DNA of 64,000 nucleotides from Antonospora locustae (taxonomy: Eukaryota > Microsporidia): NCBI GenBank assembly GCA_007674295.1, contig CM017454.1, positions 62,001-126,000 of the forward strand. The letters run 5' to 3'. The notes beneath the pieces were generated by a model. It worked only from the letters and a program-made list of their open reading frames with translations, made no database searches and had not been told where the DNA came from. The position numbers and the translations under genes were made by a program. Shown piece by piece: positions 6,841 to 31,784 of this stretch (within the stretch, counting starts at the first letter, position 1; every line of letters begins with the position of its first letter).

Positions 6841-7995
6841 ATGTTTTGTACAGTGAAAAGGGAGAGTGAAGATGAAACGAGAGTTGTTGGAATTTCACTG
6901 GATGCATCAAACAGAAGGCTTTCAAATGCGGAGATGGTTTACGTGACGGTTGGAAACGGGAAAGGTGCTAATTACCTGGAAACATATCCGATGATTAATC
7001 TCATGAACTGCTTCTTTGCGTTTGTGGCCATCGACAAACTCTTTGAGCTGCGTGGTATCGCAGTTGATACGGCGATGGGAGTACAGGAAGTCATCGACAT
7101 GAAGGACGTGGTACTTGAGCTCTCGCAGTTCAATGCTAAAAGATGCAAGCTTTCGATTGACGAAGTGCATCTTATTGGACACCGTGGTGCAGGTGAAAAT
7201 TCCACATTTGAAGATGGCGAATATATAGAAAATACGGAGTTTGCGATTAGAAAGGCGATTCGAGTTGGTGCTGATTGGGTGGAAGTTGATGTTCACTTGT
7301 CAAAGGACGGTGTTCCAATTGTACTTCATGATTTTACGATCGAGTACAAAGGGAGAAAGCGTACCGTGTCATCACTGACATGCGAAGAGGTGATGGAAGC
7401 CCATCTACTTGCCTTCAACACAAAAAAAAGAGACGATCTCTGTCTGTTAACACTAGAAAAGACGTTAGTTGTAGCTGGTAGTTTGGGAGTCAACATTGAA
7501 ATCAAATATCCACGAATTAATGAGCAGAAAGAAATTTCTGACTACGTTTATGTGCATCCGAGAATATACGTTGAGAGGATTCTCGAAGTCACTCGTGCTT
7601 CTGGAAAAGAAAAAATTTACTTCAGCTCATTTCATCCACAAATCGTACTTGCGTTGAGTGTTGTGACGCACTACTACCCGGTTTTCTTTCTCACAGAGGG
7701 GGATGGTGGAAATAATCGCGAAACAATCTGTAACACAATGGATGCAGCTATCCAATTCGCATCGAGGCTCGGAATTAGTGGTGTTATCATGGACAGCAAG
7801 TATCTCTTTTCTTGTGATACGGATTTTTCAAAGGTGACAAAAATGACAGGACTTCAGTTTATAGCTTATGGAAAGGAGTTGAATAATTTGGAATTGGCAC
7901 GTATCGCAATTTCAAGAGGACTTTATGGAGTGATAATAGACAATGTAGATGTTATTGTGGAACTATGTGCTGAGAGACTTCGTAGTTTTAACTAA
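6841..7995 (+). CDS. Glycerophosphodiester phosphodiesterase (GDE1-type)
   Basis: 384 aa. The GP-PDE TIM-barrel occupies about residues 108-380. Visible active-site residues are H114-R115-G116 in IGHRGAGEN, E130-N131 (IENTEFA), E148 and D150 in VEVDVHLSKDG, H163 in VLHDF, and E220/K222 in NIEIKYP. The family hydrolyses glycerophosphodiesters such as glycerophosphocholine to glycerol-3-phosphate and the alcohol, a plausible route to scavenge head groups. The N-terminal about 105 residues resemble the region before the catalytic domain of Gde1 only loosely, and no SPX or ankyrin repeats are evident. AAGCCCTTTAAA precedes the ATG. The gene is AT-richer towards its 3' end, where the gene-free block begins. 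Confidence 0.87.
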   Translation: MFCTVKRESEDETRVVGISLDASNRRLSNAEMVYVTVGNGKGANYLETYPMINLMNCFFAFVAIDKLFELRGIAVDTAMGVQEVIDMKDVVLELSQFNAKRCKLSIDEVHLIGHRGAGENSTFEDGEYIENTEFAIRKAIRVGADWVEVDVHLSKDGVPIVLHDFTIEYKGRKRTVSSLTCEEVMEAHLLAFNTKKRDDLCLLTLEKTLVVAGSLGVNIEIKYPRINEQKEISDYVYVHPRIYVERILEVTRASGKEKIYFSSFHPQIVLALSVVTHYYPVFFLTEGDGGNNRETICNTMDAAIQFASRLGISGVIMDSKYLFSCDTDFSKVTKMTGLQFIAYGKELNNLELARIAISRGLYGVIIDNVDVIVELCAERLRSFN

Positions 7996-9659
7996 AAGTT
8001 TTAATTTATATAAACATTCACATTATTTACGAGTTAGGTTAGTAATAAATTCCGACATTATAACTTTATTATGCTTTCTGGTTTAGATAATATGTTAGTT
8101 AATAAATTAAAGTTTGAAATAAAAAAATTATAACATAAAAATTTTATCTTAAATTTAATTTATTTGATCATATTTAACTTGAAAGACTTATTTAATTAAA
8201 TATAAAAAGGCTTGGCTTGCAATAAAGCTAGATTTCAAAAAACTAAAAAGATTAATTTGTTTGTTTTCAAGATGCACGTTTTATTAAAAAAATCTTGAAG
8301 AAGTTGTGATAATTTAGTAATTATTGTTTTATTAATAACATAGAACATAACATGTTTTTAAATTTAGTCTATAGCAAATTGTTTTACAATAATCATCACT
8401 TGCATGTATGAAAAATGTTTTTTATAAAAATAAAATTCAATAATGTAATATTTTATATTTTTTAATTCCATGTTTTTACGTAAAATACAGCAACTCTTAA
8501 TTGTCTAACTGAATCTTAATAATTATTATATATTTTTTATTTGTTTTGTTTTTTAAAATTATAAAAAAACAATATTGGATATTTATTATATAAATAATAA
8601 GTATCACTATTCTCTTTTATAATTTTAAAATTAAATAAACTTGCAGTCCTTTAAGTTTTGTGATTAAGAATTATCAAGCTTATAAATAAATAACTCCTTA
8701 TCGTAAAAAAAAAGAGAAAATAAATAGTACCATTAAAACATAATGAATATGGATTGCGTTGTTTAACTAAAGATTCATCTTCTACTTCACCCTTATAGGA
8801 ATATAAAGTATAAGTCATATGTAATCAATACATGAAGTCTTGGCAATTAAACTATTCTATACTCTATTTCTATGATGAAAAGAGCAGATGACAATATTTT
8901 TGTTTTTCAAGATAAAAAGTAGTCAATCAATTTTATGTGAATAAAAACCTATCAGCATTCTCGAAAATATGAAGTCAAGCACCTCCCTCTCTTTGTTTGG
9001 TTGGTTGAGTGCATAGATGTCAAAAACAGAAAGAATTGATACTAAATATCGCATATTTTAAGATTACCCAACAGTGAACTATACTAAAATATAAGCAAAA
9101 TAAATAGAATTTATTTAGGAACTTTGCATATTCCTTAAAAAACAGATTTTTATGCATTAAATTATTAACTAAATACTACATATATTGTCCATACGTTCTA
9201 CTGTAAAAGACACTGACTGTGAAGCAATTTAATGAAAAATGTAAATATATAAATTAAAAATTTAATAGATATTATATATATTTTTAAATTAATAGTTGAA
9301 AACTCTCTAACTTCTATTTTTAATAATTTTATATAAATGTTTACTTATATTTATTAATCTATTTTAATCAATCTTAATAATATTAATTAATAATATTATA
9401 GGCTTATGAATTAATTAACCATAACTTTCTATTCCATGAAAGAAATTATAAAAATAGATTTTATTTCGACAAACTTGAATGCCACTAGTACGGATGGATA
9501 CATCGTGATAAAATTTAGCGAGTTTTCTTAAATGAAAGTTTAGTAAAGTAGTTACCAAAAAAAAAAGATTTAAAATAGTTACAATATTTTTTATTCATAA
9601 GATATATTTTTTTATTTTTTATTGTGTTTTGATTTATCCAAAAAGGTCATTATTATTAC

Positions 9660-9753
9660 GTGTTTAAACACTCATTGAGAAAAAAACCTTCTGGAAACCG
9701 TTCCCAGCTCCAGAGTCAATAAACTTTGCCACTCTTGTACATGTTTTTTTTTT
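9660..9753 (+). ncRNA. Possible small structured RNA ending in a T-run
   Basis: A GC-richer island of about 90 bp in the AT-rich block. It opens with the 10-bp palindrome TGTTTAAACA (9661-9670), contains a 6-bp perfect stem TCTGGA/TCCAGA (9690-9695 with 9709-9714), and ends in T10 (9744-9753), which would serve as an RNA polymerase III terminator on the plus strand. I cannot assign a class. Small stem size makes chance possible. Confidence 0.25.
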
Positions 9754-10884
9754 CTAATTTAGACTACTCGTTTCTAGAGCTTACTTATATTTAAACAAAG
9801 CGTATAAATATTATTTGTTAACAATATAGCTTTATTATTATATATTTTTATTAGTTATATGTCATTTTTATATACTTAAAAAATGGTAGAAATTATTTGG
9901 ATTATACAAATTAATATCCACTACATAATATATAACTTTGAAATTAAATTTTTATAATCAATGAACACAACATAAACAGGTTAAATATATAAAAAAGTGT
10001 CTGAAAAAAGTTTCATGAAATGTTTTGAATTCAGTATTATTTCAATATAGATAAATATGTTGAGAACATAGGTAAAAAGTTAAAAAAATGTATTTGGATA
10101 AAGGTAAATAAAGTATCTAGCAGATAAATGCTTACTTATAGGGTAGTTAAAAATATATTAATATGCTCAAATGAAAAACTAAAAATCAATAAAGAAAACA
10201 TAACTTTATTAAATAACTTTATAAGAGCGTGGCCATTCCTTTTTAAATATTATGTTTTTTATAGAATATTTTATCAACATGTTTAATTATACTATGTAAT
10301 GATGATTTATGAATAAATAAAAAATAGAATAATCTAATCATGTGCAATGTACTAATGAATAGTTACACTTCATAGGTTTTAATGGTTTTTTTTCAATAAC
10401 AAAAAAAAAGACAAAATTTACATAATGATGTTTCTCTGTACTGTTGTATTATTTTTTGAAAAAGTTCTTTAGATTTGATGATATGTCTAAATGAAAACTG
10501 TTATTGTTAAATTAATAATATCAACTTTATTTATTATTTTATTTTCAATTTGTAATTTTAAATAACGAATTTTATGCATAAACTCATTTATATAAAATAA
10601 CATTAATAAAATATGACAAGTAAGTGTTTTCTAGCATTTTAACCATTGAGGGCTTTCTTTTATTTAAATCCCTTTTTGCGAAACAAACACATTGCATATG
10701 GATTACAAATACTTCATAAAAATACATGTGAGGTTTTCGCAGACTATGAATAAAGAATACAGTCTACAGTCTAGAAAACAAAAACTTCCTTTCAAATAAA
10801 ATATATATTATAACCCATTTCATATAGCTTTTTATACAATAATGACCTCACTTCTATAAATTTATTTATAATTTCTGTGAAAGT

Positions 10885-11090
10885 TATGCGTGATATCTTA
10901 AGCGGTCTCGTGTCACAAGAAGTGCCGGAAGGAGATCTGAGATGTTGGAGGCCCAGATTCAGATGGTGACACTATTGAGAACTTTCTGCATTTGGTTGGG
11001 TGCCGAGGCTTATTGAGTGTGGTGCTGGAAACGGTCTTCAGTGGATTGTTTCACACTCGAATGCAACGAGAACATCATTTCTGAATAAAC
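10885..11090. ncRNA. Candidate structured RNA, two hairpin domains
   Basis: About 200 bp of near-balanced composition inside about 85% A+T. Two adjacent domains fold on paper. Domain 1: GTGTCAC (10910-10916) with GTGACAC (10966-10972), enclosing ATCTGA (10935-10940) with TCAGAT (10959-10964). Domain 2: TGCATT (10987-10992) with AATGCA (11060-11065), enclosing GAGTGTG (11015-11021) with CACACTC (11052-11058). All four stems are perfect. ACACTA lies at the junction after stem 1 and an ACA about 5-10 bases after domain 2, reminiscent of a box H/ACA snoRNA, but the large one-sided bulge in domain 1 is unusual for that class. Strand is not decided. Confidence 0.5.
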
Positions 11091-11134
11091 ACACTTATTT
11101 TAAATATATAATACAAAAAAGTTTCTTAGTAAAT

Positions 11135-11188
11135 AAAAAAAAGTATTATCAATAATTAAAAACTAACACAAAAAAAGTATTATCAATA
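11135..11188. repeat. Short direct repeat, 19-bp unit
   Basis: An A-run followed by GTATTATCAATA occurs twice, at about 11136-11154 and 11170-11188, 34 bp apart, immediately after the structured island. It looks like a local duplication; no further copies follow. Confidence 0.6.
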
Positions 11189-14100
11189 CAAGTACTAGAA
11201 TATATATATTTTATGATGAATAATTAATTAGTATAGTTGTAACTTTATTTATATAGTGGGTTTCTAAATTTTGTACAAAAATAATAATTATCATAAAATT
11301 TGTATATAATAAAAATTATTTGTAATAAACTTAAATAGAAAATTTCAAATACTAAATATAGGAAAAATATGTTATAAAATTAAAATAAATAATCATTTAA
11401 TTAAAAGTAGTCAAACATAGATGATTTCTTATATGTTTTTTAATTTTGAATTATATATATTCACTAACTTAAAAATGTTAATATTATTTTTTTTGTAAAT
11501 TTTATTAATATTATTTATTAGATAACCAAATTTGCTTAAATATTATTTTTTTGTTTATAAATTTGAAATACAAATTGACACACTATGAAAATATATTTTA
11601 TTCATATATAAATTGTATAATGTAAGTTGTAAAAATTTATTAAATTATTTGAAATTTGTTTGTAATGTTTTTAACTATATTATAATTAAAAACAATTTTT
11701 ATGTATCTAAGTTTACTTTTAATTATTAATATCTAAATAAATTATAAGGTCATAGTTGTTTAGCATAATTTTTCAAATTTGCAATAATCGATATTTTAAA
11801 CACGTAAATTGAAGTTATTTTAAGTTTTATGATTATATTAAAAAATTAATTAACTTTTTTAGGTAATAGCTTTATTAAAATTTTCAGATCAGGGAAAATT
11901 TATAAAGCGTCTAACGGTCGCGATATACAGCGTGCTCATTAAGCTTTTATTTACGGACATATAATTTTAAAAAAATAATTTTTTTGTTTGTAAAAAATAA
12001 AAATGATTAAGATTAAGAAATATTTTATTTATAGCATGAAAAAACCACTAACACATCATAGATTTGAAAAACTTAAAAATAAGACTTTTATTTATAGATA
12101 GCTATATCATAAAGTTTACTATCTATTATTCTAACTAAAAAATATTTATTTAATAAAAATTAAAAAATTAAATTACTCATGTAACTGAAAATATATAAAC
12201 ATTACAATTTTAATAATATTAATCAACTTTTATAATCGTAGATTTAAATCTTAATTATCTCTTATTTAACAAAACATTATATAGACGTTCTAACATAAAT
12301 GGAATAGATGTAACAATAAATACATTTCATGTAACGTTGGTTGAAATCATTATTTTTTTGATCTATATCATTCGAAGGCAAGCGACGATGCTTAGTAGGA
12401 TGATAAATTAGATTCATTTGCGAAAATAGGACGTAACAACTGATGAACACAATTTATATGGATGTTTTGTAAATAATTTAATAGTTTTAATTTTTTAGTA
12501 AAACTGTTTTCCGAAAAACTGTATAACATATTAAATTTATCTATGAAGACATCATGAAAACATTTATTATCAACGGAGAAATATTAGGCAATTTTCAACC
12601 AGATACTTAATTAAGGACATTTTAATATGTATTCATTCTTCTCTGCTCAGATAGCATAATGCAGAAAATGTGTTTTACAAAATAACTCAAATATGCTATA
12701 GAATACATTTTTACCCTATATAATTAAAGCATAAAAAATACGTAATGATAGAAATATAATTTGTTTAAATTAAATAAATACATTTTCTTATTAAAATAAC
12801 GAAATGAGTTTTTACTTACTATTATCTATATTATTAATTAACTTAAATAGTAGATTTTTAAGATAATAACTTTATTCATGTTCATTTAGAAAAGATTTCT
12901 AAAACTTCTTGGGCAACTGCAATCCATTATGTGCCCGTTGTACTTTGATTCGCCAGATTTTTAAATTAGGTGTAGTTGTTTGATTTTAATACAAAATAAA
13001 ATACTAGTAATAAATATTGAGATAAAGTATTTTGTAAAAGTAATTAAGTTTGTATTTAACAAAACAACAAAATATCTGAATATTATTAAGTGAATTTTTA
13101 GTCATTATTTATTATATGTTATTAAGCTTTGTAAAATATGTAGCCTGAATTTATATCTAATGATTAACTAAAACTATTTTAATCATACAACATTTTCAAT
13201 TTATAAGTTAATACAAAGATTAAGTAAATAAAAAAAAAAATATCCTAAATTCAATTAGTTAAGTTGTATTAACTTATACATTTTATTTTTATCAAGTGAT
13301 AGTGTATATTACATAATACATTATGACTATTAGAATAAAAATATTGATTATTTACTATTTATGCATGTAAAAATAACTATTATTATCAGTTAATCCTATA
13401 AACTAATGGATAAATAATATTTTATATAATATTACTATGAGTTAAATCACCATAAGGTTAACGTTTACGAACTTAAAAATAATGTTAAGGCTAATATAAT
13501 TAGAAATAAGCATAAGGTTAACTATTTATTGATCTTTTTATTAGGAAAATTTCCAGTAAGTATAGAAGCAGCACTTCTAAATGAATACAAGCCAATTAAA
13601 TGGAAAACTAATTTCTAATTTTAAAGACAATAAATTGCATAATAAAGTAAGTTTTTTATAACATATTATTTTTATAAATACTTCATAAGTTATAATCAAT
13701 TACAATGTATTATTATCAGTAAAAGTTGAATTAAAATTACATTATTATGTTTTTATAAATTGAATAAGTTTTTACTTTTTAATGATACTTTATAACAGAA
13801 ATAAAAGATAGTAATAATAACATTATATAATTATTTTTTATAGTAAATGTTAAAATATCTATGACTAAAAAGGCTATAAACAACTTACATATGAAAGAGC
13901 ATTTTACATTCAATAAAGTATTTAATTCAAAAATTATGAAAACGTTTGTTAAAGTTACATTAATATTTAATAATATATCTAAAACTTTTTTCAAATTAAT
14001 ATAAAAAACATTGTTCTATAATAATTGCTGTATTTATTAGAAGTAATATTTTTTAAATATACTATCTATTTTATTATACAATTTTTCATAAAAACAAGAA

Positions 14101-16019
14101 AATAAATAATTAAAAAAGTAAATTTTCCTGAACAGGTATACAAATAAGGTTATTATTACTTTAGAAAAGCAGATAATTATTCAAAATTATAAAAACTCCT
14201 TTTAAATAATGATATTTTTAAGTGAAAATGTTACTATTTACTCACAAAGTTAAATAGATTCATTATGATTAGGGGCTTATATTAATATTATGACAAACAA
14301 AAATATTTTAAAAATTAGTAATAATAGTAGTACGATCAAATGAATTATTGAAAATAGTATAAAATTTTAACTTAAAATTAGTTTAGAAGTAATATTAATT
14401 AAAATATAAATATTTAGTAGTAGATTTTTGTCTATAATTTAGAAAAATAGTATGAACATTAACTAAAAAATATATTAAATATGTTTATTATATACTTATT
14501 GACAAATAAAAGAATTCTAAATTCACTACTTTTAAAAGATCACTAAGTCATGAATAATTATAAAGTTAACTACAAACTTACAAAATTTTAGGAAGTATAT
14601 TTAAATTATAGAAGCCGTATTAAATTTGGAATTTAAGTATATTTTAATATACATAAAGAATTATATTGACTTTTATATTCATAGATTTAGTATAATAATT
14701 GAAATACAAATAAAAACATGTAATCATATTAATGCTATTATTAAATAAGTCATACAATAAAAAAATTAGATTTTATATGAAAAGATATATTCTTGATACC
14801 TTTTTTTTATAAATATGGCTTTAAATATTTATTAAAATTTTATTCAATTAACAAAGTTTATAAATACTTACTTATTTATAGTATTTGTATATATAAACCA
14901 TATCAAATAATGTTTTTATTATAAGATAATAAGTTATTACTCGTTACATTATTAATATAATAATCATATTTTTACTATATTTTTAAAGTTAGTTTTATTT
15001 TTTAAATTATAAAATTATCATGACTACTCTATGAAATAAAAATTATATAAAGCTTATGATATAATATGAAGCTTTTCTTAATAAATAAAATTTCTTTAAT
15101 CATAAAATAGTTTCGCCGACATTTATGTAACAATTTCTAGCATTAAATTCAATAAATACCACTAAGTTTGTGTTATATTTTTACACTGCACTTTGTATAT
15201 GTTAGATTACCTTTTGTCACTATTGTTTTATTCAATATCAATTTATTTATCTATTATACATTTGTATCCCTTGAAATTATTTTTTTTCGCACTCATACAT
15301 AGTACAATGTATTCGTCTAATTTTATTAAATAAAACAATAGCTTCGTTTAATTTGTGATTACTTTTTAATTCGACATTATAATAAGTTATTTGCTATTCT
15401 TTGTAATATTCAACTTCATGCAATTTTTTTCTAGGGGATTATCACTATATTGTTTTTGAATCTTTAGTTTATCGATGACCAATAATATGAAGCCTACTCT
15501 ATATATATTTAGGTATATTCTAAAGACATGGCCATAATTGTTGTAATTGTGTTTTTTTTTGTTTACAATACTGTATATACCTTATAAGTATATTTTATCA
15601 CTATTTTGTGATGCTGCATTAAATAATCAAGAAGATGCTTTTTATCTTCTAATTATACCATACTTTCTCATAACAAATCCATCAATAAAACGCTATAAAT
15701 TGTATCAACTTATGCATTTTTATGAATAAAAGCATTAATTAGAAATATTTACAATTTGACTTTTACGATAAGAAATTATGTTATTGTTAAAAATTAAATT
15801 TAAATGTGCAAAAATTAAAAATATATTTATACAACATTAATAACATGGGTATTTTTTATAATAACATCTTTATTTTAAGAACATAATAATCGAAAATTTT
15901 AAATTAAAAACATTATAAACAACTTGTTACACTTTACATATTAACATTTTATTTACTGTATAATTTTAATTTTCAAGGAGTATAACCACTTAAGAATGGC
16001 CTGCTCATATAAAAATAAA

Positions 16020-16200
16020 AAACCAGATATTTGATATTAAGAATGAGATACACTTAAGAGAGGTGAAACGTGCAAAGAGGATTGCTATATTAGGCAAATA
16101 TGGTAGAAATAGGCATATGTTTAAACAGTTACATCCATAGAAGAGCGGGGATGTTAGTAGAATGAAAAACTGAAGAATTTCGCAAACTGTATCCACAGCA
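16020..16200 (+). pseudogene. Possible decayed coding fragment
   Basis: A GC-richer stretch within the AT-rich block. One plus-strand frame reads charged, protein-like text (KNEIHLREVKRAKRIAIL, then GKYGRNRHMFKQLHP) interrupted by two in-frame stops (TAG, then TGA) with similar-looking text after each. I do not recognise the family. The opposite strand carries an uninterrupted 63-codon frame that is strongly hydrophobic and less protein-like. This may equally be non-coding sequence. Confidence 0.25.
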
Positions 16201-17009
16201 TACGATGTTTTACAACTAGTATAGGCATTTTAATAGTACTTCAAGATTAGAAAACATGGTTAATAAAATTTTTACCTGAAAAGTGTAATATACAGTTGTG
16301 TAAACAGGCTATTCAGGTAATACTATCTCATTCTAAGAGTATATAGCAGATATTTAGAGTACTATCTTATACAATAATGTTCGTTTTAAAATAATAAACA
16401 TTATCTTAAAAAATATTCAAATTATTCGTTTTTCACAATAAAATACATAAAATAATTTTTTAATTTGGCTTCTAATTAATATGCATTAATAATTTTGAAA
16501 AATTTCAAAGCTGTTAAAGAAACTAGATACACTTGTTTGTTTATTATAGAATAAATATAAAAATCAAACAAATTCTTATATTTATAATATTTTTGAATTT
16601 TTATACTAATAGGCTTGTATAATAAGCAGTATATTTTTTTAAATATTATTCTAGAAACTATTTATAGTAAGTAATGTGTTACAGAGATTTTTTTATATGT
16701 TCTCACGATTTTTTTATAATTTAAAATCTAAAACATCATATGTATATCCTCCTTTATTTTTCAAAAACAAGTAAGTATATATTTTATGTCTTTTAGATAA
16801 AATATGTTATCCAAGTTAAATAATAACTAAATCTATTTTTTTAATACATTAATTGTGAAAATTAGATCTAATTTTTCTATCTATATTATTAATAAAACAT
16901 GACTATCATGATTTTGCAATTTAAAGGTTTTCTATACATTAATATAGTAGGCTGATGTTTTAATATTTTTAATAATGATAGAGAAATTGTTATCTAAAAG
17001 TTACTCTTA

Positions 17010-17120
17010 GAAGATAGCTAGGTGCAACTGATTCGTTGCACACATTTGCTACAACAGACACCTTTTACTTTCATAGTTATTTCTAAGCGAACAGTGATTG
17101 TTTGGGAAGTGTATGCTATC
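17010..17120. ncRNA. Candidate structured RNA, closed two-hairpin domain
   Basis: An island in which GATAGC (17013-17018) can pair with GCTATC (17115-17120), enclosing two hairpins: GTGCAAC/GTTGCAC (17022-17028 with 17035-17041, loop TGATTC) and CGAACA/TGTTTG (17088-17093 with 17099-17104, one G-U pair). The segment between the hairpins includes CCTTTTACT (17061-17069), which resembles U5 snRNA loop I, but it has no flanking complementary stem as U5 requires. Composition returns to AT-rich after about 17180. Confidence 0.4.
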
Positions 17121-20100
17121 AAAGTCGTCAGAAAACAAAGTGAAACGAGAATGGTGTACTGCAACAGTGAAATGCTTTAGAAAGCTTCATAATACATAAT
17201 CTTAGTAAAGTTGTTATTTTAAAAATGTAAATAAATTAAAATTATAGTCTAATCGAATATTTGTGTTATTAAAATTTTGTTTTTTAATTATGTATTATAG
17301 TTTACATATACATTAATATTAATTTGTTTATAGTTTTAATATATGATTGTATTTTGCACATGTTAAATTAGACAATGATTATAATATCATTTTGATTAAT
17401 GAATATTATTTTTATACAAATAGTCGTATACAGTAAATGTTCTAATTACTTTATAGTAATGTCTTCATTAAAATTACATATTCCTGTAAAACAAGGACTA
17501 GCAAGCATACAATAGTCAATAAACGACATGGATTTCCGTTCAGGATTCCCTATGTGGTAATTTTATTAATAAAGATGTTAAAAAAACCAACTAACTTAGA
17601 GCTTTCCTAATATGTATCTCGGACAATTATAACCATTGTTTTCTCTACACTTTAGTTCTCAAATATCATATTTTGGTGTTTTAAAAGAGATAAATAATTT
17701 TATATCTACGTATCTGTGAATTTAAGTTATATGTTCTATTTAATGTAAACTAAAATGTAAATTATACATATACTTTTCAGGAATAGTTTTTTATATGAAG
17801 CTACAATTAATGTGTTTTTTATAAATAATTTTAGTGCTCGTTTATGCATCAATTTTTTTAACTACATTAATAAAATGATCATAGAACTCAAGTGTTATTA
17901 TTATTTTAAATTATACATAAAATTGAATGTTTTACTTAATATATAACACGAATTTTATCAAATGTATTTTTAATAACGAAACTATATTCACTTATTTTTT
18001 AAATTAAATTAACTATCAAATTAAAACCTCATTATTAAATATAATTTTCATGTAATACATATATTAAAAAATAAAAACTTTATACGTTTTTTCTACAATA
18101 ATTTTTTTAATAAAATCCTTACATCATGAAATGTTGAATAAATAAAAAATGCTGTAAATATAAATCAAACTTAAATAGTTACAAAAATTAGGATCTTACG
18201 TGCTATAACCAAACTGTTAGAATGCTTATATGAATAAAGTTTATTTATTGAGCATATTATAGGTCCTTAACTGGCTAGGACTATCATGAAAATTCCTAAA
18301 TTATAATTTTAATATTAAGGTTGTTATATAATAAAATTCTTACACAAGTATGATATATTATCATTACAAAACAACATTATAGAATATCATTAATAGAAAA
18401 ACCCATCTATTAATATTAAATAAATATAAAAAACAAATAAGTTATATATTTTAAAGCCTAAATACAAGGCACGTCATTATATCATATACAGGTTTGTTAA
18501 ATTGATGCTTCCTATTAATTTTTTAGATAAATTCGTTAAATAAAAACTATGTAACTTACTTTATAAATATATCAAGCATTAATTATAAAAATTTACAAAA
18601 ATAATTTTAATAGATTAAAATAATGAATTTGAGAATAAAAATCATCATTAATTTACATTATACGAGTTTTACAGGTAATTACAACTATGTTGTTAAAAAT
18701 GTATATATGATGTTTATGATCTTAAACAAACAAATTACATATCTATCAAAATTAATATTTTAAATAATTAAAGAGATTCTAATTTGAAATTTCGAACTAC
18801 ATTAATGGATAAAAATTAACGAAAACTGAGTCAAAAAACCACCCAAAGACGATTTTATTACTAATAAAATTTAAAATATCTTGTAAATATAATTGAATTT
18901 AAGTTAAGTATTTTACTTAACATAAAGGAATTATAAAACACATTTTTGAAGAAAAACTATAAAATAGATAATGGATGATTCCATTTATAATAAACAGATT
19001 TATTAAAAAACACCCTTTAAGTTAATACAACAAAGTCGTGCATATTACAAAATCAACAGTCAAAGGTCGTTGTACTAATAAATAATTAATATAATGAGTA
19101 ATTAATAATAAATATATTTTTTAAAAATAAAATGCAATAAATAAATAATGGAAAGCATAAGCCATATTGAAGAATATTATCAATTGTATGCAAATACCAG
19201 CTAGTATTAAAGTTTAATAGTATGTAAAATCTTATATAGTAATTATATAGCTACTATTGTATAAATTAAATATTAAATAACATTACAATCATAAATAACA
19301 TATTAAGATGTACTTTAATAATTTAGTTTAAATTTGTAAAATTAAAGGCTTTTATTAAAAAATTATTTGTTATGCTGTGAAATATAAATAAATACATAAT
19401 GATATTCTAAAATAAATAGATACCAATTTATTAAACACAGCAAACCAAAATTCTGATTACACAAAGTGAACCGACAGGTAGTAATGTGTTAATAAGCTTT
19501 CAGAAGTGGAATGTTTATAAATTTATACCTTAAACAATTTATACAAATTAACTGTTTTTAATAATATAATCTAAAAAATATTATATAATATATTTATATT
19601 TTTACTTTATAAATCTATAACTCAAAACAATAATTATTTTATCAACATCATCTGTATTTAATTTAATATATTTGTGTATAATTATATATTAAATTTTAAA
19701 AGTTATATAAACTTTGTTTATACTATTTTCAATTCGTTACTATAATATATATTATATTAATAAATTAAATTTAGAATGTAAGAAACATATGAAGTATTTA
19801 GTCTATTCTAAATGTTTAATTTAAGAATATATAATGAAAGTTATATTATTACAAAATTATAATAAATACAGATACTGATTTAACTAACTATAATATAAAA
19901 ATGAGATATTGTATATTATAAATTCTGCAAAGCAATTCTTAGCATAATGATCAACTTTTTAAATTCATTTTTTGTAAGTGTAAATTTAATAAAATAAACT
20001 ATTGTAATCTGCTAAAACTACTAGATATCTCTCTGTTCTATAATAATAGTTGAAAGGACATTCATTAACAATAATACCAATTGTTGTTTTGATATCTAAT

Positions 20101-20629
20101 ATATTATTGATTTTAATATCTCTAGCAAACTTCTATTAAAGAATAAATACACATTAATAAAATTATCTTGACAACATAAAAATTATATAAGTGTTATTTG
20201 TGTTTGTTTTAAAAACTATAATTATATCTATTACTTTATTTGTTATTAGTATGAATTATAAATATTGTAATTGTCAATACATCATTATTTTTAATATATG
20301 TTCTTAATTACATTTTAATTTAAATAATGAGGTTTTTATAATTAATTATATTATTATGTAAAATTCAACAAATAGTATTTGTTTAAAATGTTAATTATAG
20401 TTATCATAATTTCCACCACGATATCAAGGACAGTTATACAATGAATTAATAATAGAGAACGTGATCTGAGGGAATGCATAGGACAATTAAAAAACAAATT
20501 TAGTGAATAATGTAAAGAAAATACAAATAGAAGAGTTTTTACAATGAAATATGATAGAAACTATATATTTTCTCTTTTAATATAGAGTAAAGTTAAATTA
20601 TTATAATTAATTATTAAAATTCTTTTTAA

Positions 20630-20706
20630 GGCGACAACTTCATTTAATTTTTAAAGTAAATGAAGCTGTCTAATGTGTATTGGCCGGTTGCACGCCACAT
20701 TTTTTG
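20630..20706 (+). ncRNA. Candidate small RNA: strong hairpin, second stem, T6
   Basis: GACA-a-CTTCATTTA (20633-20646) pairs with TAAATGAAG-c-TGTC (20657-20670): 13 base pairs around a single A-C mismatch with a 10-nt loop. A second, weaker hairpin follows (ATGT and GGC pairing with GCC and ACAT, about 20673-20701), then a run of six T, a typical Pol III stop. The compact order hairpin-hairpin-T-run argues for a short plus-strand transcript. No class is assigned. Confidence 0.4.
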
Positions 20707-23700
20707 ACTAGCAAAATATGGTTTATTAATCATTTTATGATAATATTTAATAAATATATGTTGATTACGAGATTAATTTATTTTTTATTAATTAAGTTAT
20801 TTTTAATTTATAAAGAGATGTTAATTTAAATTTTTAATGAGTATTGCTAATATATTTCATTATGTTCATTTAGCTAAAAATTTTTCGATTATTAGTGATA
20901 TTTTTATAAATGGCTTTATATAACTAATACAAATACTATTATTAAGCATTTTTTATAATAAAGAAAATACAGATTCCTTATATATAAGTATATAGTACTA
21001 ACTAAGTAATTGTTTTCTGGTTAATATCATTTTTTTAAGATTGATATAAGCTTCTATAATGTTAAAAAATTACTTTTAATAATTATTATTCATTATAATC
21101 GTCACAAAATTGAGTAATTTATCTGTTTATTATAAAATAATATATATTATGTTGATATTCATATTTTAAGCTTACTTCCTATAAATTCATAAACGAATGT
21201 AAAAGTTTTTAGTATAAATAACAATTCTAATAATACTTTACTATAAATAAAAAGTTAATCCACATTATTTAATATTTAATTACATTAATTTATAGTTACA
21301 TAATATTTACTAAGTTATTCTTAATTTTTTACATTTATGTTTTAAACATTTTATTTATAATAAATTAACAGATAAAACTAATAAATATTTTTCCAATTTT
21401 TATTATAATTTATGATATTAGAGATAAATAAAAATTAAATTTATTATTGTTGTTAATTATGGTTTAAATAAAAGATGTTTAATTTAAAAATAAAAAAATC
21501 AGAAAATATATATTTAACAAATAATTGTAATTTACACACTTGTGTGGATGTCTGTTTTTCTATTATTAATTCAAAATGCCAAAAAATACAGAAAATATTA
21601 ATTGTTTTTTATTTATAATTACTTAATATATTAACTATTATACAAACTCTAGTGTAATTTATTTATCTATATATTTAATTACATTAAAGATAACTACTTC
21701 ATAAATCTTTTTATAGTATTTTCAAGACAATAGAATTTTATTTTTTTATTCAAATAGTATTTCACTATAACTATTTAATTAGTGAATTAGTTAGCTTTTT
21801 TATGACTCTTTTATTTACTAGTGTTTATGTAGTAAGTATTCAATACATATTTTTTCGCATATTATGTTAATAAATTTTTTAATAGTAGTCATCTAAGTAT
21901 CTTCTTTCATAATGTTCATTGTGTTTTATAACAAGTATGTCTACTAATATTATATCATATCTTATGACTATTAAAAAATGAGTAAAAAGACACAATAATC
22001 TATCTACCTCTAAATAAAAGCTTCTCATATGTTATAATAGGGATTTTTTGAGTGTAATATTTTATATAATAAACATTAGTTTGCTGGACTTTCCAAAAAC
22101 ATTTAGTATTTTTTTATTAATTAATTCTACAATATTTAATTTAGATATTACCGTAAAACAACAACTTTCATATAAAAATATCCAGTATTATATACTTCCA
22201 GAAAACGATAAATTTCAAGATTGTAACTTTGATAACAATAGAGCCCCTACTATGAGTATTGCATATTAAAATAACAATGATTCTCTGCTTGATGACATGT
22301 TAAATTTTATTTGACCACAAGTCAAGAGATATACCTATTTATTTTAATGTTTAATCCATAATTTCATGTTTTAAAATTTTTGTAAATACATTACAAAAAA
22401 GTATTAACAAATGACAAGACTACATGCAAACATTTAGAGAATATATAAATAAATGTATTTTGTAAGGTATTTTATTTAAAAAATAATGCAAATTAAATAT
22501 TAGTTAAAATGGTTTTATAAATCGCAACTTATTGTAAAAATTCTATAACTAATAAATGCAACTTATATGTATTTATCATATAGTTATTATTTGTTTCTAA
22601 AAAATAACTTTATTGTTTTTATAGTTACCTTACAAAGTTAATTATTTTGCCAATTTTTATAAGAAATATTAACTAATACGTATTTGTTTTTATATCAAAC
22701 AAAATAGTTAAGTAAACATATTTTTTTTACTTACAGTTTAATACATACACAATATACTTCATTTTTATTTAAATAATAATTTCTTAGCCAAAATTATTTA
22801 GATGCTCATGTACATCTATAATTATTTATATTTATAAAGGAAAATAACAATTTTCATAAATAGAGCTTTAAGATTTTTAGATAGTTTATTGCAAAAATTT
22901 CCATTTTTATGTACTAAATTGATGACAAATCATCGATATCACTTTAATATTAAAATTGAGTTTGTAGTTTAGTATCAATACAATATAAAATTGAAATAAG
23001 CTACAAAATAAACGTATAATAATGAACATATTTTAAAGTATCTTTATATTGATTTTTATCTAAACTATTCAACCAAATCTAACTTTCATCTTATTAAATA
23101 CTATAAAAATATACCATTATTGATTATAGCGTATTTTTTACCTATAATATTTATACAATTAATGTACAAAACTTTTATTATAATTTAATTGTGTAAGGTT
23201 ATCTTTAAAACTATATACTATAAGTATATAAGTAATGTTTTAAATTTTAATATGTTTGTTTATATAAAATAACATAAATTGAATAGTAGCTATTATTTAT
23301 GTGCAACAAACGTACTGTTCTTATACTTTAGTTTTCATTATATAAAAAACTTTATTTTATTATTAGTAAATTACTCTAATCCTGTTCAATCAAATTGCAA
23401 GAAAGAGACAATTTTGGTCACACTGTGTGATGATACTTTAGTAAACTTTCCCAAAATAGAAACATTAATAAAGTTGTCACCTAAAAAAATTAATTTCCAC
23501 ATAGATTCTAAAAAAAATAAGATATTATAGAAGATAAAGCTAATTTAATTTATAAATAAGGATTAATAAATAAAACAAGTTGTAATATTAAATAAATACT
23601 ATATAGTAAGTATTAAAGTTGAATGATTATAGGTTATTGTTTGTTATATATTTATGTAATATCTAAACATTTGATTTTAAATAGTTCTGTTTTAATCAGA

Positions 23701-25752
23701 ATAAAGATAACTTTATTAATATACTAATTAAATTGTTGCTAAACTAAGTAAATTAATATTGAATGATAACTAGCCAAAGTGTAATGAAAATTTAAGTATT
23801 TATTAAAGATATATAACAAAACTATATTTTTGTTAATATTATTGTTATTTTTAATTACATTCAATTATAATACGAATTTTTTTTAACTTTATTAATATAT
23901 ATACAATTTAAAGTTTTTAAAAGCTATTTTTGTTTATAAATTTAGTAAAATTACATTCTTGTTCTATTTAAAATAAAATACCAATAAAAAGTATAACCGT
24001 AAATTTTTTTAATTAACAAGTTTATTAAGTTTTTTATTCTAAACTTCCTAAGAATCTAGATAAGTAATTCTTTAGTATATGTGTTATACTTTGGTTCCCA
24101 ATGTATTATTGAAAGCCTTTTTCAAGCAGTATTTATCTAAAAACTAGATAAAGACAATGAAATCGTCTCAATTAGTATTTTCAATATTAATTATTGCTTT
24201 TATTTGGAAGACTACAGAAATAAAAGAAAATTTTATCTTTAAGCAAATATTGATCTTAATATATAAAGTTAACTAATCATTTAGGATTTTTATTTACATA
24301 TAATATTTAAGTCCAAGCATATTGCTTAAATTTTATGACATTTAAATATCATGTTTTCCTTTATATAAAATAATAATCAAACAACATGATTTTAATTGTG
24401 CAATTAAAAGTTTTTAGTTCACAAGGAATTTTACTGATATATGTTTTTAGATAGAGATTCATATTTTACATAAAAATTCTAGTAAAGTCTATATAAATAA
24501 TATACATTTATATGATTAAGTAGTAAAAATTATCTAGATATTGTAAGTATAATATAAAATGTACTTTTTAATTATTATTTTTATTTGTTCTTTAAATGTA
24601 TACTTTAAAAAAGTTCTAAATGCCTATTATCGTGATTTACAACAATTCATCTAAATAGTATTAAAAAACTTACTTTTCTATAATATCATACACTTTATTT
24701 AAATTTATTGTAAAATTTACAGATAATGTTGTAACTTTTTCTAGCAATAATTCATTTACAAAATTTCTACAATGGAGAATCTTATAAAAAACATACCTAC
24801 CATAGAGTTATCATTTATAATCTTTTATTTATTATTTAAAACCAATTTTTTTATGGTGTTTTAATTTTAAACACAGTTTAGTAAACGATTATTTCAAAAT
24901 AAACATTTAGGTTATGACTAATACCTTTATAAACAAACTAGATACAGTTGTACTTTTTATTCTATTTTAAGAACTAAAGTAACTTAAAATCGGATGATAA
25001 AATCATTCATTTGATGATTTTATAAGACATAATACAAGTTTTTATATAAACATCACATAATGCAACATATAATAGGTTTGCTTGTATAAGATTTTTTTGT
25101 TTTATGTATCTGTATTTTATTTTCAATAAATAATGTTATTTAAAAATAACCTTTTATAATCTTTATTAGGAAAAAACTTAATTTAAAAATATACTAAAGT
25201 CATATCTAATGTTAAATGGTTTTTAAAAATACTATTTACAAGGTATATATTATTTTTATAAAATGAATTATTATGTGATATTATCACTTGTTATTGTGAA
25301 ATAAAGAGCTTATTAAGTTTTCTTTAAAGTACCACAGATTCAAGTTATTTGTGGTTTATCTAATTGTTTACATTTATATAGATAAGTTGATTTTTTATTA
25401 TACAAAGTATCCTCAATTGTGTAAATAAGTCCAAACAAATCTATATGTAGTAATATATAGAATATCTTTAATAAAGGCATATCCTGTTACTAAATTCTTT
25501 TAAATCATCCTATTGTAATTAATTTTTTAATGGTTTATTTTATTAATAATAAAGAAAAAAAACATTTATTCTTATTTAATATTACTCAAATTTAACTAGC
25601 TTATTTATGAAAATTTATATTAAAATATTTTAATATCTAAAAAATCAATCATTATTTTTGGTAATAATTTTACTATCAAAATTACTTGATTATAAACCCT
25701 CATAAAACGTCTTGTTGTTGCAAGTACTACGTGGTATGGGATATGAAAATGT

Positions 25753-25776
25753 TTTATAACATGATCATGTTATAAA
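25753..25776. repeat. Perfect 24-bp palindrome
   Basis: Twelve bases read identically on both strands around the centre TGATCA (half-site TTTATAACATGA). Flanking pairs stop matching at 25752/25777. It could be a dimeric protein site or a cruciform-prone sequence; nothing else is recognised here. Confidence 0.6.
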
Positions 25777-26098
25777 CTTAATAGTATAAAATGATAATCA
25801 GGTTCACATTTATAAACAAAATAGATACATTTATTAATTTCAACTTATTTATTTAGAAATTTGTTGTATTAGAAATATTTTTTATAGCTACATCTTTCTT
25901 CATAATTACGATATTTTAATGTGTTTATTTTTATTTAATGAATATCCAATTATTAGCTTATCATAATATAGATGACAATTAATTCATTTAAAGAATGTAC
26001 TTGTTATATTAGCTAAGTAGTAATATATTTAACCTTGAGCATAATATTATGGTTTACTATAAGACCAGGAATGAAATAACTATCGTAGAAATGTAGAT

Positions 26099-26245
26099 AA
26101 CCTCCTTGGGAGATTTCAAAAAATAATATTGCAAAAGCTCGTAAGTATGGGGTTTTTGCAAAAATTAAGAAAATCTGCAGGTACAAAGTTTGATGACATA
26201 GGACGATGTAGTGAACTCGTATTACAGGAATTATCAAATGAGATA
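26099..26245 (+). pseudogene. Possible decayed coding fragment
   Basis: A GC-richer stretch. From a stop at about 26093 a frame of 48 codons stays open to a TAA, reading PPWEISKNNIAKARKYG then FLQKLRKSAG then GRCSELVLQELSNEI. It is charged and amphipathic like ordinary protein but has no ATG, no CCC start motif and no recognised family. The minus strand holds a competing, hydrophobic 74-codon frame (26013-26237). If coding at all, it is a remnant. Confidence 0.25.
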
Positions 26246-26360
26246 TAAATTTTTATAGTAAGAGGCCTATATTTTGAATGTGAAACTAATGGAAACTGTT
26301 ATATGTTTCATTATGTGTCAATATTTATTGAATCTGATGCTAGAAGCGGCTTCCAGCAGG

Positions 26361-26690
26361 CTATTTCACAATAATTATTAGAACGTACAAAAATGATCTT
26401 CCTAAATAAATCATATATTTTTTAATTTTATTATTATCAAAGTCTTTGAGCATAAAAAATGTAGATAAAACCAGTAGAGAGCTATCATTAGATGGGAAGC
26501 GGAATTCATCTGATTTTTTGCGTACATTAGTGGGCAAAGTCACCTTTCTGTGTGCGATCATTACCCGACTAGCAACAATGCTTGTCGAGAAATGAGCATC
26601 TGTAATAAGATTATCTGTGTACTTGAGTACAATGGCTATATGACGAATCGCAACTGTGAGACACTTTGAGAAGGCTTCAAATCGAGTGTT
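26361..26690 (-). pseudogene. Possible gene remnant, 109-codon open frame
   Basis: The longest open frame in the AT-rich block and the one with the most ordinary composition. It runs from a TAA just above 26690 to a stop at 26361. The text includes FEAFSKCLTVAIRHIAIVLK, then YTDNLITDAHFSTSIVASRV, then KVTLPTNVRKKSDEFRFPSN; the last about 20 residues revert to AT-driven text. There is no ATG until residue about 44 and no CCC motif. I recognise no family. It could be the remains of a gene captured by or decaying within the AT-rich block. Confidence 0.35.
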
Positions 26691-29523
26691 TTAATAATGA
26701 AGCGCTATTTAAAAATACTTTATGATACTAATATGACCAGAAATTATCTATAAAAATTAAAAATATAGATGCTTTTTTTGTTTATTATTACATAAAAGTA
26801 AAAAGTACTTGATTTATTTTAAGTAATTATAGTGTTCTAATTTAAAATTTCAACTAGGGATTTAATATTTTTTCTATAATTTTTACCATATTTACTATGT
26901 TTCAATTAATAGTGTATGTTATTGTATTTATATTTTAATAATTTATTACAACATACTACATTATATGTATATTATGAAATAGTTTACAATCAATATAGTA
27001 GTTGTAGTTAACATAGTTTTAATAGAATATGTTAAATAAAAATAATAAAGAAATTATATTTAAAGTAATTGGTTTAAAATTAAATTAAAAATTTGACAGT
27101 CTATAAACATTCTTTTAAGTTGTTTTAATTTAAGAGTATAACGATTTGATTATTTTTATATTTATGTTAAGAAGGAAATGTGTATTATGTATATTATTTT
27201 GTCTTAATACTAAAAAACTTACATTGTTTTAAAATAAAATTTTATTAATAAAATCTTTTTTAATATATAAATTACTGACAAAAGTCCTTACTAGTCCAGT
27301 TTGTGTTTAAAACAAACATATTTTTCGCATAATTATATTGTTTTTATGATAAAATTTCTCTTCATAGCTTAGTTTTTTAATAAAAATTCTTAAAGATTTT
27401 ATTTTATATCACAACGTCTATTCTACGCCCTATTTATATCATATACTATAAACATAATTTTTATAATAACAAAAAGAATATAGTTAAAGACTAAGATTTT
27501 ATATAATATAATCATTGCAAATTTTATTATAATAAGAATTCATCAAAGTTTTTCTACTTATAAGCAATTCGGGTTGGTACAGGTAGTCGAATGTTTCCAC
27601 TTTTGTAGATTTAATTAGACATACAAATTTATAACTCAGTATTTCGCCAAGTTTACTTTTAAACCTTTGCACAAAAGTATTGTTGTAATAAAGGAAGCAC
27701 TGTAGTTATATATACAGTATTTAAAAAAGTTATTATAGTTTTTATGAAAAAGTTTAAGATTACTTATAAAATACTTTACATATAAAATATGTTACAGAAA
27801 CTCATGTTTTGGTGTTAAAATGCTTTACTTGGTACTCCTTTCATTAATAATGTGTATTATCTAAAAAAATAACTAAAGTTATTTAAAATATCTGTCAAGT
27901 ATATAAGATAAAATGATATAAAGAAGTAAAATGAAAGTAATAAATTAATAATAATACATTTAAATGCTTAAAAAAACAGAAAATATAAAAGGAGAAAATA
28001 TTTATAAAAATAAGAATAAAATGTAGTTCTATGTTAAAGTAATGTATCAACACAATAAATTGATTAAAAATTTAGAACATAAACTTGTATTATTAAATTA
28101 TTGTATAAAAGAAAACTGCATGTAACAAAAAGTAATGAACCATCTATACAGTAAATTCTTATATAATAAGTTTCTTTAAATAGCTTATAAACAATATGAA
28201 AATTTTTATTTAATAAATTTTTTTCTTTTAATAGCTACATAGTTATATGTTTTTATATGAATTTGATTATTACTTGATACGGCACTTTAAATGTAGAACT
28301 AAATCAAAAAAAAGTAAAGACTAGAAGTAGCACATAATTGACAAATTAAAAACATATCTGATAACAAAGTATTTTGTGACCCGTAAACCTAACATTAACA
28401 TTCTAATAGGTAGAACTATTAAATTTTCACGTATATAGATAATTATAATTACATAAAATATATTTGATTGATCATTTGTTAAAATTAATGTACTATTTTA
28501 TTTATTATATAATTTAAAATTAAATCAAATGTATACCATTATATTTTTCTTATAAAAAGATGGTTTTTTAATAAAATTGTTACATAAAAAATACTATTAT
28601 CCATTTATCGTTATATTTAAAACTATGTAGCAACTTGGAAATATAAATAAAAATATTAGGAATAATTTAAAACATAAATTATAATAAATGAATAAATGTA
28701 AAAAATATTAAAAATTAAATCATTATTATCTATAATATAATGTTAGCCAGAAAGAAAATGTTTATCATAACTAACAATAAATAAAATTATATTTTAAATC
28801 CAAGAAATTGTATAGGAGATATTTAATTTTTATATTTACTATAAATTTTTGGTTAAACTATTGCTAAAAAGTAACTTAAAATAATTAAAAAATATGCATA
28901 TATACATAGTTGTTTGTATTCAAGTTTTAGAAAAAAATATCAGATAAAATCACAATAAAACATGATTGTATTGTATTAAAATAAATTATTAAGATAATAA
29001 TTAATAACTTATTATTTTTATTTTTAAACTCTATTTTTATATATTTTAAATAAAATTTGGTTTAAAAAGAAAACATTCTATGATAGTAGGAAATTTCTAA
29101 TAATTTTTTGATAAAATAACATTACATAATTAATTTTAAAATAACATTTTTGTAGACAATAATTTATTTTACTTTTAAATGAATTTCTAAAAATAAACAT
29201 AAATTTTATTCAACTTATAAAACATAAAGACAATATCTATTAAAAAATGAAGTGATATTAATTAAAATTTCATAATTATTTATTGCATACATAATAAATA
29301 ATGTTTTATTTTAATCGTTATATTATACAGCACCACTTTTAATATTTATAAATTTAATAACGCATATAATTAAAAATTAGGAAGTATAATGTTATAAAAA
29401 AACTAAATATAATTTATAATATCGTAACAGGTCTATGAACTAAAGTGTGATAATAATACAGTAGGTTACGAACTGCTAATCATAAGGGCTCCTACTGGGT
29501 AATTTTGATAAAACTATTATTTT

Positions 29524-29545
29524 AAAAAATGCATATGCATTTTTT
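29524..29545. repeat. Perfect 22-bp palindrome
   Basis: Eleven bases are mirrored on the other strand around ATGCATATGCAT, with A6 and T6 arms. It lies about 80 bp before the large structured island. It might be a site for a dimeric factor or, as RNA, a hairpin ending in a T-run. Confidence 0.6.
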
Positions 29546-29619
29546 GTTCTACTATCTTTATCTTTATACAGGAATAAAAATGAAACAATAAATGATTACA
29601 CTTGAATCAGTTTTAAATA

Positions 29620-30025
29620 CACTCGCCCAAATAAATTGGGGCGTAGGACCCAGCGGTAAAACGATCTTCTGTACTATGATTGATGCCGGGTTCTATGCCC
29701 TGCTGTCCAAAGCAGTGATTCGTTGAAAAACGTTCATTGAAAACGGCGGGCCTGCTTCCTCAGAGCCGCCCAGAAGGACGCCGGCCACCGAGTCTGCCCT
29801 GAAACCATTCAGCGAAAAATCCCCCAGGTTAAGTAGCGCCCACATGTGGACTTCCGTGCATCATGCTCACTCTACACGGAAGTCCCGGTGTGAAGAGCCT
29901 GACTCGGTGGCTGTAGGCGAAGTCAAAATAAACAGCACTTCTCATTTTTATCTCTTCTAGTAGGAGGAGAACCTTTTGCATTCGCAGAGTCAGCCGCTCT
30001 TGTTTGTACTTTTAGTACAAACAAA
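29620..30025 (+). ncRNA. Candidate about 400-nt structured RNA gene
   Basis: The largest and GC-richest island in the AT-rich block, with stop codons in all frames and many exact inverted repeats. Stems: CGCCCAA/TTGGGGCG (29624-29630 with 29636-29643, one bulged G); CTGCT/AGCAG around 29698-29713; CGTT-GAAA-AACG (29721-29732), a GNRA-type tetraloop; a 13-bp stem with one G-U pair (29782-29794 with 29901-29913, core CACCGAGTC/GACTCGGTG) enclosing an 11-bp perfect hairpin (29848-29858 with 29875-29885, GGACTTCCGTG/CACGGAAGTCC); and a terminal 9-bp hairpin (30001-30009 with 30015-30023). Size and architecture suit RNase P, RNase MRP, SRP or telomerase RNA, but I could not confirm a diagnostic motif. 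Plus strand is a guess. Confidence 0.6.
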
Positions 30026-31784
30026 TCTAATTTACTTACTAGTTATAATAAAAAATTTATTATAACACCATGAATGACTCTCAAAATACTATAACTTTGA
30101 TTGAAAATATAAAAATAGATACCTATTATAAAAAATATATTAAAGCTATTCTCAACTATTATTTGGATATTAATGTGAATTCTTTTTTTTTTTCGAGAGC
30201 CAATGTATAATGACAGCAGACAATTCACAGAAAGTAGAATGTAGGCTAAAACTGACTATTATGTTAATTTAGTAAAGCTCGTTAGTCTGAAAATGTGAAT
30301 AAAGTTATGTATTACCTTAAAAACCATTCATCTTTATAAAATTTTTACATTTTAAGGTTTATTGTTGAAAATGATTTCATATAAGATAAATTAATTTTGT
30401 TTATTACATTATTTTAATGTAAAAATATCATTACGTTTAATTTAAATTTGTAATATATATTTAATTTCTAAAGAATAAAGGCCTATTAACAGGAAAATTT
30501 TTAATATTAGGAACTTTTACATTTCATGATTGTTATTTAATATTTCAACTAATTATGAAATAAAATATGAGTACATGAATATTATGATAATAATATTATC
30601 TACTTTTAAAAATTTTTTGTATTAAAATTAATTATTTAAAATTAAATAGCTTAATTGTATTATTGTTTTTTATTAATAATTATATTTGTATGGATTCTAT
30701 TACTTTTATTATTCAATATATAATAAATAAACCTTTTAATCTTAAAGTGAGAATAAATTTAATAAACGAACTAAATAAAAACTCATACTTCTGGTTTCTT
30801 AACCCTAAAAAAGTATTTTAGATAATTTTAAGTTATTTTAAATTAAGAATTGAAAACGTTCATTAAATGTAAGAAAAGAAGTGGCTATGATAATGTTTTT
30901 TATTCTTGATATATTCATAAAATAGAAATATTGGTATTTTAAACAGATAATAACAATTTTCATACAGTATAAGTATTTGAGAGTCATTCTTCATAAATAA
31001 AAAAGTCCCATAAGATAGGAAATATTTAACTGAGAATCTTTTTATTAAAAATTAAAAAAGTATTGTAGAGTTCTTCTTTATTGAGTCTCAGCCTAGAAAG
31101 TAGACCAAGCATATTTGTTTTTTTCAGTTTTTGTACTTTTAAATTTGTATCTAATACATTTTGATTGGTATAAATATGCTTTGTAATAAAAAAGTAGGAT
31201 ATGTTTAAGAATTTTTAAACTATAATTAAGGTTGTATAACAAAAAATACTATCAAATAAATAAAGTTAAATTAATTATATTCTAACTTCTTCAAGCTTTA
31301 AAGTTTTTTATTTAAAACTTAGTTTTAAATAAAATTAGTATATTTCTAAGCTATGATTCGGAATAAAAATAAAATTGTCTCTATTTGATTCATACGTTAA
31401 TTTGCACTCTTAAATTAACTCTTATATGAAAAAAGCAAAATTCTTTTTATTTGATACTTTGAATTTCTGCATTCATAATTTATCACCGCTTACTAAATTG
31501 AAATCCATAGAGAAGAGCATCATCACCTTTATATAGCTTAAAATAACTAAGCAACTTTTATGTATTTCATAAATCTTAATAGTCTTCTTTTCTCCCTATT
31601 GTGTGAATAAAAACTCCATTTTCATACATATCTCATACAACAATGAGAATAAGATTACACGCTAGACTAGCTGAGTGTATTCTCCATCTAAACTTAGTTC
31701 GCTCGCTTCTTCAGAAGCAGAGGTTGTATAAACGTATAGAACGTAAAAGAACCCTCAAAAAGTTTAGTCAATAGAAAGAGAACC

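Follow-up and report, generated by a model that had tools for sequence, protein, structure and literature searches.

Microsporidian centromeres are poorly described, and the question of their location is raised by a long A+T-rich, gene-free block on contig C8 (CM017454.1) of the Antonospora locustae genome. We analysed this block within a window of 64,000 nucleotides (C8:62001-126000) from the assembly GCA_007674295.1, which comprises 3,170,203 bp in 17 contigs (C1 to C17). The block covers window positions 7996-31784 (C8:69,996-93,784; about 23.8 kb) and its midpoint lies at 0.45 of the contig. From its sequence features we consider it probable that the C8 block is the regional centromere of its chromosome, because it is free of open reading frames (ORFs), A+T-rich and internal, because most contigs showed one sampled zone of this kind, and because some of these zones have recent copies in common without a strong motif. 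In a 2025 phylum-wide microsporidian study, no centromeres were found from GC or repeats in the species covered, holocentric or epigenetically defined centromeres are mentioned and A. locustae is not (PMC12449221). Likewise, the chromosome cores of Encephalitozoon are described as showing no centromere candidate (PMC10158259). It is this gap that makes the zones of A. locustae of interest, as the genome offers a definite candidate interval on most chromosomes.

The GC content of the C8 block was 20.4%, compared to 44.4% in the remainder of the window, and the best two-break segmentation of GC placed its edges at 7,985 and 31,657, that is 10 bp and about 127 bp away from where the flanking genes end. 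An earlier note on this DNA had described a gene-free, A+T-rich block of about 24 kb with a sharp composition shift at both edges, which our measurements bear out. Its value of about 85% A+T was too high: we measured 79.6%, and 81% (18.8% GC) in the 20,450 bp left after setting aside a few GC-richer islands. The composition of the block is uneven, and GC-normal islands are present, chiefly a 452-bp element and a dispersed repeat piece (Table 1). As the note had stated, the block contained neither a tandem satellite (all arrays reported by Tandem Repeats Finder were shorter than 90 bp) nor a recognised intact mobile element. Furthermore, no tRNA gene was found in the window by an ARAGORN scan, and no Rfam family at gathering score.

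None of the 53 ATG-initiated ORFs of at least 100 aa in the window lies inside the block. The longest ATG ORF in the block has 66 aa, a length reached in 61 of 100 shuffles, and the longest stop-to-stop frame has 109 aa (26361-26690, minus strand, within the GC-richer island of Table 1), reached in 6 of 100 shuffles. Strong 3-base periodicity, scored in 351-bp windows, was seen in 0 of 201 windows of the block, in 87 of 341 windows of the flanks and in two windows of the shuffled block. Stop-to-stop frames of at least 60 aa were nevertheless more numerous in the block (23) than in 200-bp local shuffles (14.1 +/- 3.6; 1 of 100 reached 23) or 100-bp local shuffles (16.0 +/- 3.8; 5 of 100). This excess of medium-length frames suggests that degenerate remnants of coding or GC-normal DNA persist in the block. 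In 10 kb taken from the C1 zone no such surplus was seen. Pfam scans with stops read as X, confined to the GC-richer island (six frames) and the C1 copy of the dispersed repeat (three frames), gave no family over cut-off in either, with a single match below it.

Similar zones were found elsewhere in the assembly, which we sampled thinly (160 loci, 299,820 bases including overlaps). In chromosome arms, calibrated mainly on C1, C8 and contig ends, 60-bp windows with at most 25% GC made up 0.28% of 3,967 windows, compared to 81% of 562 windows from the block; at most 20% GC was reached by 0.03% of the arm windows, and 600-bp arm windows with 30% GC or less were absent (0 of 384). A low-GC zone with at least two low windows was found on 14 of the 17 contigs. 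On C1, where 152,662 of 388,820 bp were read, 27 of 310 windows had at most 27% GC and all of them fell within 144,255-167,424. On C8, of which 77,000 of 182,304 bp were read, a single zone was seen, and on C2-C7, C10-C13, C16 and C17 at least two low windows lay in a single zone with normal DNA on either side. The zones are internal, lying between about 0.19 and 0.66 of the length of their contigs; the ranges in Table 1 are sampled positions, which for most zones set no more than bounds on the true length. C14 and C15 gave one low 60-bp probe each (at 84 kb, 15% GC, and at 30 kb, 22% GC, respectively). The earlier note had suggested checking whether each chromosome has exactly one such block: as far as sampled, 14 contigs showed a single zone, C14 and C15 rest on one probe each and C9 has no clear zone. 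The note had named several blocks per chromosome as an observation that would speak against a centromere; none were seen in our sample, the one possible exception being a lone low 60-bp probe at C17:68001 (23% GC), with normal probes 2-3 kb to either side. A stray lowish value was also found at C7:60001 (28% GC).

DNA searches with the C8 block matched other contigs mostly inside A+T-rich DNA, the exceptions being a match in normal DNA at C4:28455 and one in an intergenic spacer of C9. Some zones have recently copied pieces in common but not their bulk sequence. For instance, the dispersed repeat piece is 99% identical to C1:145255-145455 and C5:109999-110182, 92% identical over 235 bp to C13:44093-44322 and 72-73% identical to copies on C7 and C6, and it matches C9:102478-102515, between two genes, with 92% identity over 38 bp. 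The copies have a common 3' end and ragged 5' ends. Their GC content was 33% on C6, 41% on C7 and 48% on C8, the older copies being A+T-richer. On the C6 and C7 branches, 25 strong-to-weak and 9 weak-to-strong changes were counted (34 changes, polarity set by parsimony). This modest parsimony evidence fits a scenario in which DNA is copied into the zones and then decays to A+T. The repeat at 10884-11086 was also considered as a structured RNA, which was rejected (folding z-score 0.05).

The 452-bp element, in contrast, folds far better than its shuffles (z-score -6.65 on the plus strand and -4.05 on the minus strand). It matched no Rfam family at gathering score and gave sub-threshold matches only. 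Its DNA was compared with this genome, E. coli and plasmids; no match was found to either of the latter two, and an origin from them was dropped. When a covariance model of 141 columns, built on part of the element, was run against 18 sequence sources, it recovered nothing beyond the two known copies and their reverse-strand hairpins. The element may represent a non-coding RNA or else a small mobile element. In the C4 zone we also noticed inverted copies (C4:157841-160957 and C4:149944-153060) of at least 3,117 bp with 99.94% identity, which may reflect either an inverted repeat of the centromere or a fold-back in the assembly.

We then turned to genes for kinetochore and heterochromatin proteins. 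The genome contains an Ndc80 match (E 1e-39), a weak candidate for the CENP-C cupin domain (33.5 bits, against a cut-off of 29 bits), three chromodomain matches and one Piwi (Argonaute) match, while no match to cytosine-5 methylase (PF00145) was found. Two histone H3 genes are present. One forms a pair with H4 and lies at an edge of the C1 zone (match at C1:167425), and the other stands alone at C1:323312, with no adjoining histone within the 3.4 kb read. For each of the two, the best 60 solved relatives are H3 proteins; among the best 120 of 7,988 protein matches of the lone H3, most are ordinary H3 and a few are labelled CENP-A-like. In Encephalitozoon, a lone H3 has been proposed as CENP-A from the same gene arrangement (PMC10158259). 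A contig of 1.95 Mb, deposited under the louse Menopon gallinae and flagged UNVERIFIED_CONTAM, encodes an H3 with 82% identity to the lone H3; it perhaps belongs to a close microsporidian relative that would serve for synteny.

Several observations weigh against a centromere. No recognisable CENP-A was found among eight of the nine histone-fold matches (the one on C13 was left out): both H3 proteins have ordinary tails and no loop-1 insertion, as judged by general hallmarks of CENP-A and not by alignment to one. The CENP-C model also hit 6 of 14 control genomes below the cut-off. No 8- or 10-mer was strongly over-represented in the zone samples of nine contigs, whose zones were partly read. 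The gaps in our sampling reach 56 kb (C8:126-182 kb), so that extra zones could be missed, and uniqueness of the zone is well sampled on C1 only. Moreover, C9 (171 kb) has no distinct zone: 4 of 23 windows (6,630 bp sampled) were low, scattered at 28, 36, 76 and 120 kb. C9 also encodes an RNA polymerase L-type subunit and a uracil-DNA glycosylase that is matched nowhere else in the genome; because of these genes, of which the glycosylase is the one tested for uniqueness, C9 appears to be a core chromosome rather than a contaminant. It is A+T-richer throughout, as its windows above 27% GC average 34.5%, compared to about 46% in sampled arms elsewhere. No other contig lacks both a clear zone and a single very low probe against an otherwise normal background. 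The absence of a recognisable CENP-A is not fatal to the centromere reading, since Mucor circinelloides lacks CENP-A yet retains other kinetochore proteins (reviewed in PMC7385547).

A common short motif, as in point centromeres, was not borne out by the 8- and 10-mer counts in the partly read zones of nine contigs. A 22-bp repeat, D1, with four copies in C8 was dropped as a shared centromere motif; its 12-bp core, allowing one mismatch, occurred nowhere in zone samples of eight other contigs and once in 200,000 bp of arms. If the C8 block is a regional centromere, it would be an A+T-rich, gene-free domain of about 24 kb that is specified by chromatin instead of a common DNA motif and carries the kinetochore, and HP1-type heterochromatin would probably surround or cover it. 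We infer kinetochore binding and low recombination in the block, and that DNA entering it would drift to A+T through A+T-biased mutation, unopposed by gene selection or recombination-linked repair.

Comparable centromeres are known from other fungi. Those of Magnaporthe oryzae (PMC7385547) and Neurospora (PMC10246852) are, like the C8 block, ORF-free, A+T-rich and kilobases long, although in A. locustae we found no signature of repeat-induced point mutation (RIP) and no cytosine-5 methylase match. ORF-free and AT-rich type features have been proposed for centromere prediction (PMC7385547). The putative regional centromeres of Microsporidia sp. MB resemble our zones in being gene-sparse, away from the ends and present on all MB chromosomes (PMC13174016). 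However, these regions are GC-richer than the genome and carry Ty3 and long interspersed nuclear (LINE) elements and CpG methylation (PMC13174016), whereas our zones have a low GC content and do not include the one reverse-transcriptase match that was found. Encephalitozoon has, as here, two H3 genes, one paired with H4, and heterochromatin components, but its cores are uniformly gene-dense and the authors favour (sub)telomeric centromeres (PMC10158259).

The block could instead be gene-poor DNA that was silenced and drifted to A+T, either as a heterochromatic AT isochore or as a domain beside the centromere (pericentromeric), the true centromere being a small site inside it or elsewhere. The chromodomain and Piwi matches and the apparent decay of inserted pieces to A+T are consistent with this explanation, which we nevertheless regard as rather unlikely. 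RIP usually gives TA/AT above 1.1 and (CA+TG)/(AC+GT) below 0.9. The block has indices of 1.04 and 1.00, and with no PF00145 match in the genome an isochore made by RIP is not supported, leaving the AT isochore of the earlier note without support in this sense. Nor does RIP account for the apparent decay of the copied pieces. Centromeres form one subclass of AT isochores in other fungi, but isochores are usually scattered, with many per chromosome (PMC10246852), whereas C1 had one zone in its 152,662 bp and the other contigs one sampled zone each, under thin sampling.

A decayed remnant of large A+T-rich foreign or mobile insertions is very unlikely. The common 3' end and ragged 5' ends of the dispersed repeat and the copied 452-bp element would suit such an origin, but one internal zone per well-sampled contig is not an insertion pattern. 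The single reverse-transcriptase match of the genome (PF00078, C2:200289-201038) lies outside the zones, and a retrotransposon island was dropped on this ground, although decayed copies could escape detection.

Chen et al. (2020, Microb Genomics e000421) reportedly gave the A. locustae genome as 3,170,203 bp in 17 chromosomes and described ultra-low-GC regions of about 25 kb and about 20% GC on 16 of them. Our sampling fits this description, with C9 as the likely exception. These regions were reportedly tied to host-interaction transcription and not to centromeres. The excess of medium-length frames and the structured 452-bp element leave room for transcripts. However, no ATG ORF of at least 100 aa, no codon periodicity and no Pfam family over cut-off in the scanned island and C1 repeat copy were found, and a transcribed parasite-specific region seems to us a highly improbable account of the block.

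Just as improbable is an assembly artefact or a contaminant joined into the chromosomes: the C4 inverted copies could be a fold-back, but zones of several contigs have pieces in common yet different border genes, and GC is lowered in the flanks as well, so that the mis-join considered in the earlier note is unlikely. A region associated with rDNA was rejected, as no Rfam match was found in the window and the small-subunit (SSU) rRNA matches, from the 5 of 43 candidates scored, all fell on C6, some 85 kb away from the low-GC zone sampled there.

The low-GC blocks themselves have probably been described already, and what would be new is a test of the centromere reading. In our literature search, the only paper found to join A. 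locustae and centromeres was one from 2026, whose discussion of centromeres refers to "similar regions in A. locustae" as having a lowered GC content (PMC13174016). It lists GCA_007674295.1 (A. locustae CLX) with 18 scaffolds and a mean GC of 41.6%; the assembly used here has 17 contigs. If confirmed, the C8 block and its counterparts would be regional centromeres of a genome that ranks among the smaller ones of eukaryotes. Should the other zones match the C8 block in length, they would amount to about a tenth of this genome. A more far-reaching proposal is tentative and, as a whole, doubtful: that the zones are the first sequence-visible set of GC-poor microsporidian centromeres, lacking a recognisable CENP-A and acting as sinks for GC-normal DNA that is copied between centromeres and then decays to A+T, with the 452-bp element maybe a centromeric non-coding RNA.

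The genes bordering the zones differ, with a GDPD-family gene and an ORF of no recognised family at the C8 block, histone H3 at the C1 zone and unrecognised ORFs at the C5 zone. The claim that the border genes are A+T-richer was confirmed, though the halo is modest. The 2 kb on either side of the C8 block have GC contents of 0.431 and 0.383, compared to an arm mean of 0.462, and GC was 0.374 to the right of the C1 zone and 0.365 to the right of the C5 zone, the latter value including the transition. By GC content at third codon positions (GC3), the GDPD gene ranks second lowest and the right-edge ORF (0.44) fourth lowest among 33 ORFs. Neither Pfam nor NCBIfam gave a match to the latter ORF at the limits applied, leaving the label Rpn given to it before unconfirmed; besides itself, two unnamed relatives were found at E<=0.001 among about 5.8 billion proteins.

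Table 1. Features of the C8 window (window coordinates) and sampled positions of low-GC windows on the contigs (kb).
Feature	Position	Strand	Remarks
GDPD-family gene, left border	6841..7995	+	Pfam PF03009, E 5.2e-34; GC3 0.40
Candidate regional centromere, A+T-rich, gene-free	7996..31784	.	GC, break points, no coding signal, similar zones elsewhere
Dispersed GC-normal repeat piece, ~190 bp	10884..11135	+	copies in several zones
GC-richer island	25990..26850	.	27-34% GC per 200 bp; no family recognised
GC-normal element, 452 bp	29574..30025	+	identical to C3:82664-83115, flanks unrelated
321-aa ORF, right border	31785..32750	-	family unrecognised; two relatives, 76% and 63% identical
Low windows, C1	144-167 kb		
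Low windows, C2	48-56 kb		
Low windows, C3	66-84 kb		
Low windows, C4	150-161 kb		
Low windows, C5	86-110 kb		
Low windows, C6	101-104 kb		one further low 50-bp probe at 82 kb
Low windows, C7	114-117 kb		
Low windows, C8	70-93.5 kb		
Low windows, C10	40-55 kb		
Low windows, C11	64-77 kb		
Low windows, C12	60-80 kb		
Low windows, C13	43-46 kb		
Low windows, C16	50-63 kb		
Low windows, C17	20-32 kb		

At least two SSU rRNA matches were found on C6 (189,014-190,415 and 193,688-195,088), a lower bound as 5 of 43 candidates were scored. These two genes are full-length and microsporidian; they point in opposite directions and lie some 11 kb short of the end of the contig. No telomere repeat was evident by eye in 300 bases at each of nine contig ends. 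Several contig ends look alike, which suggests common subtelomeric gene families.

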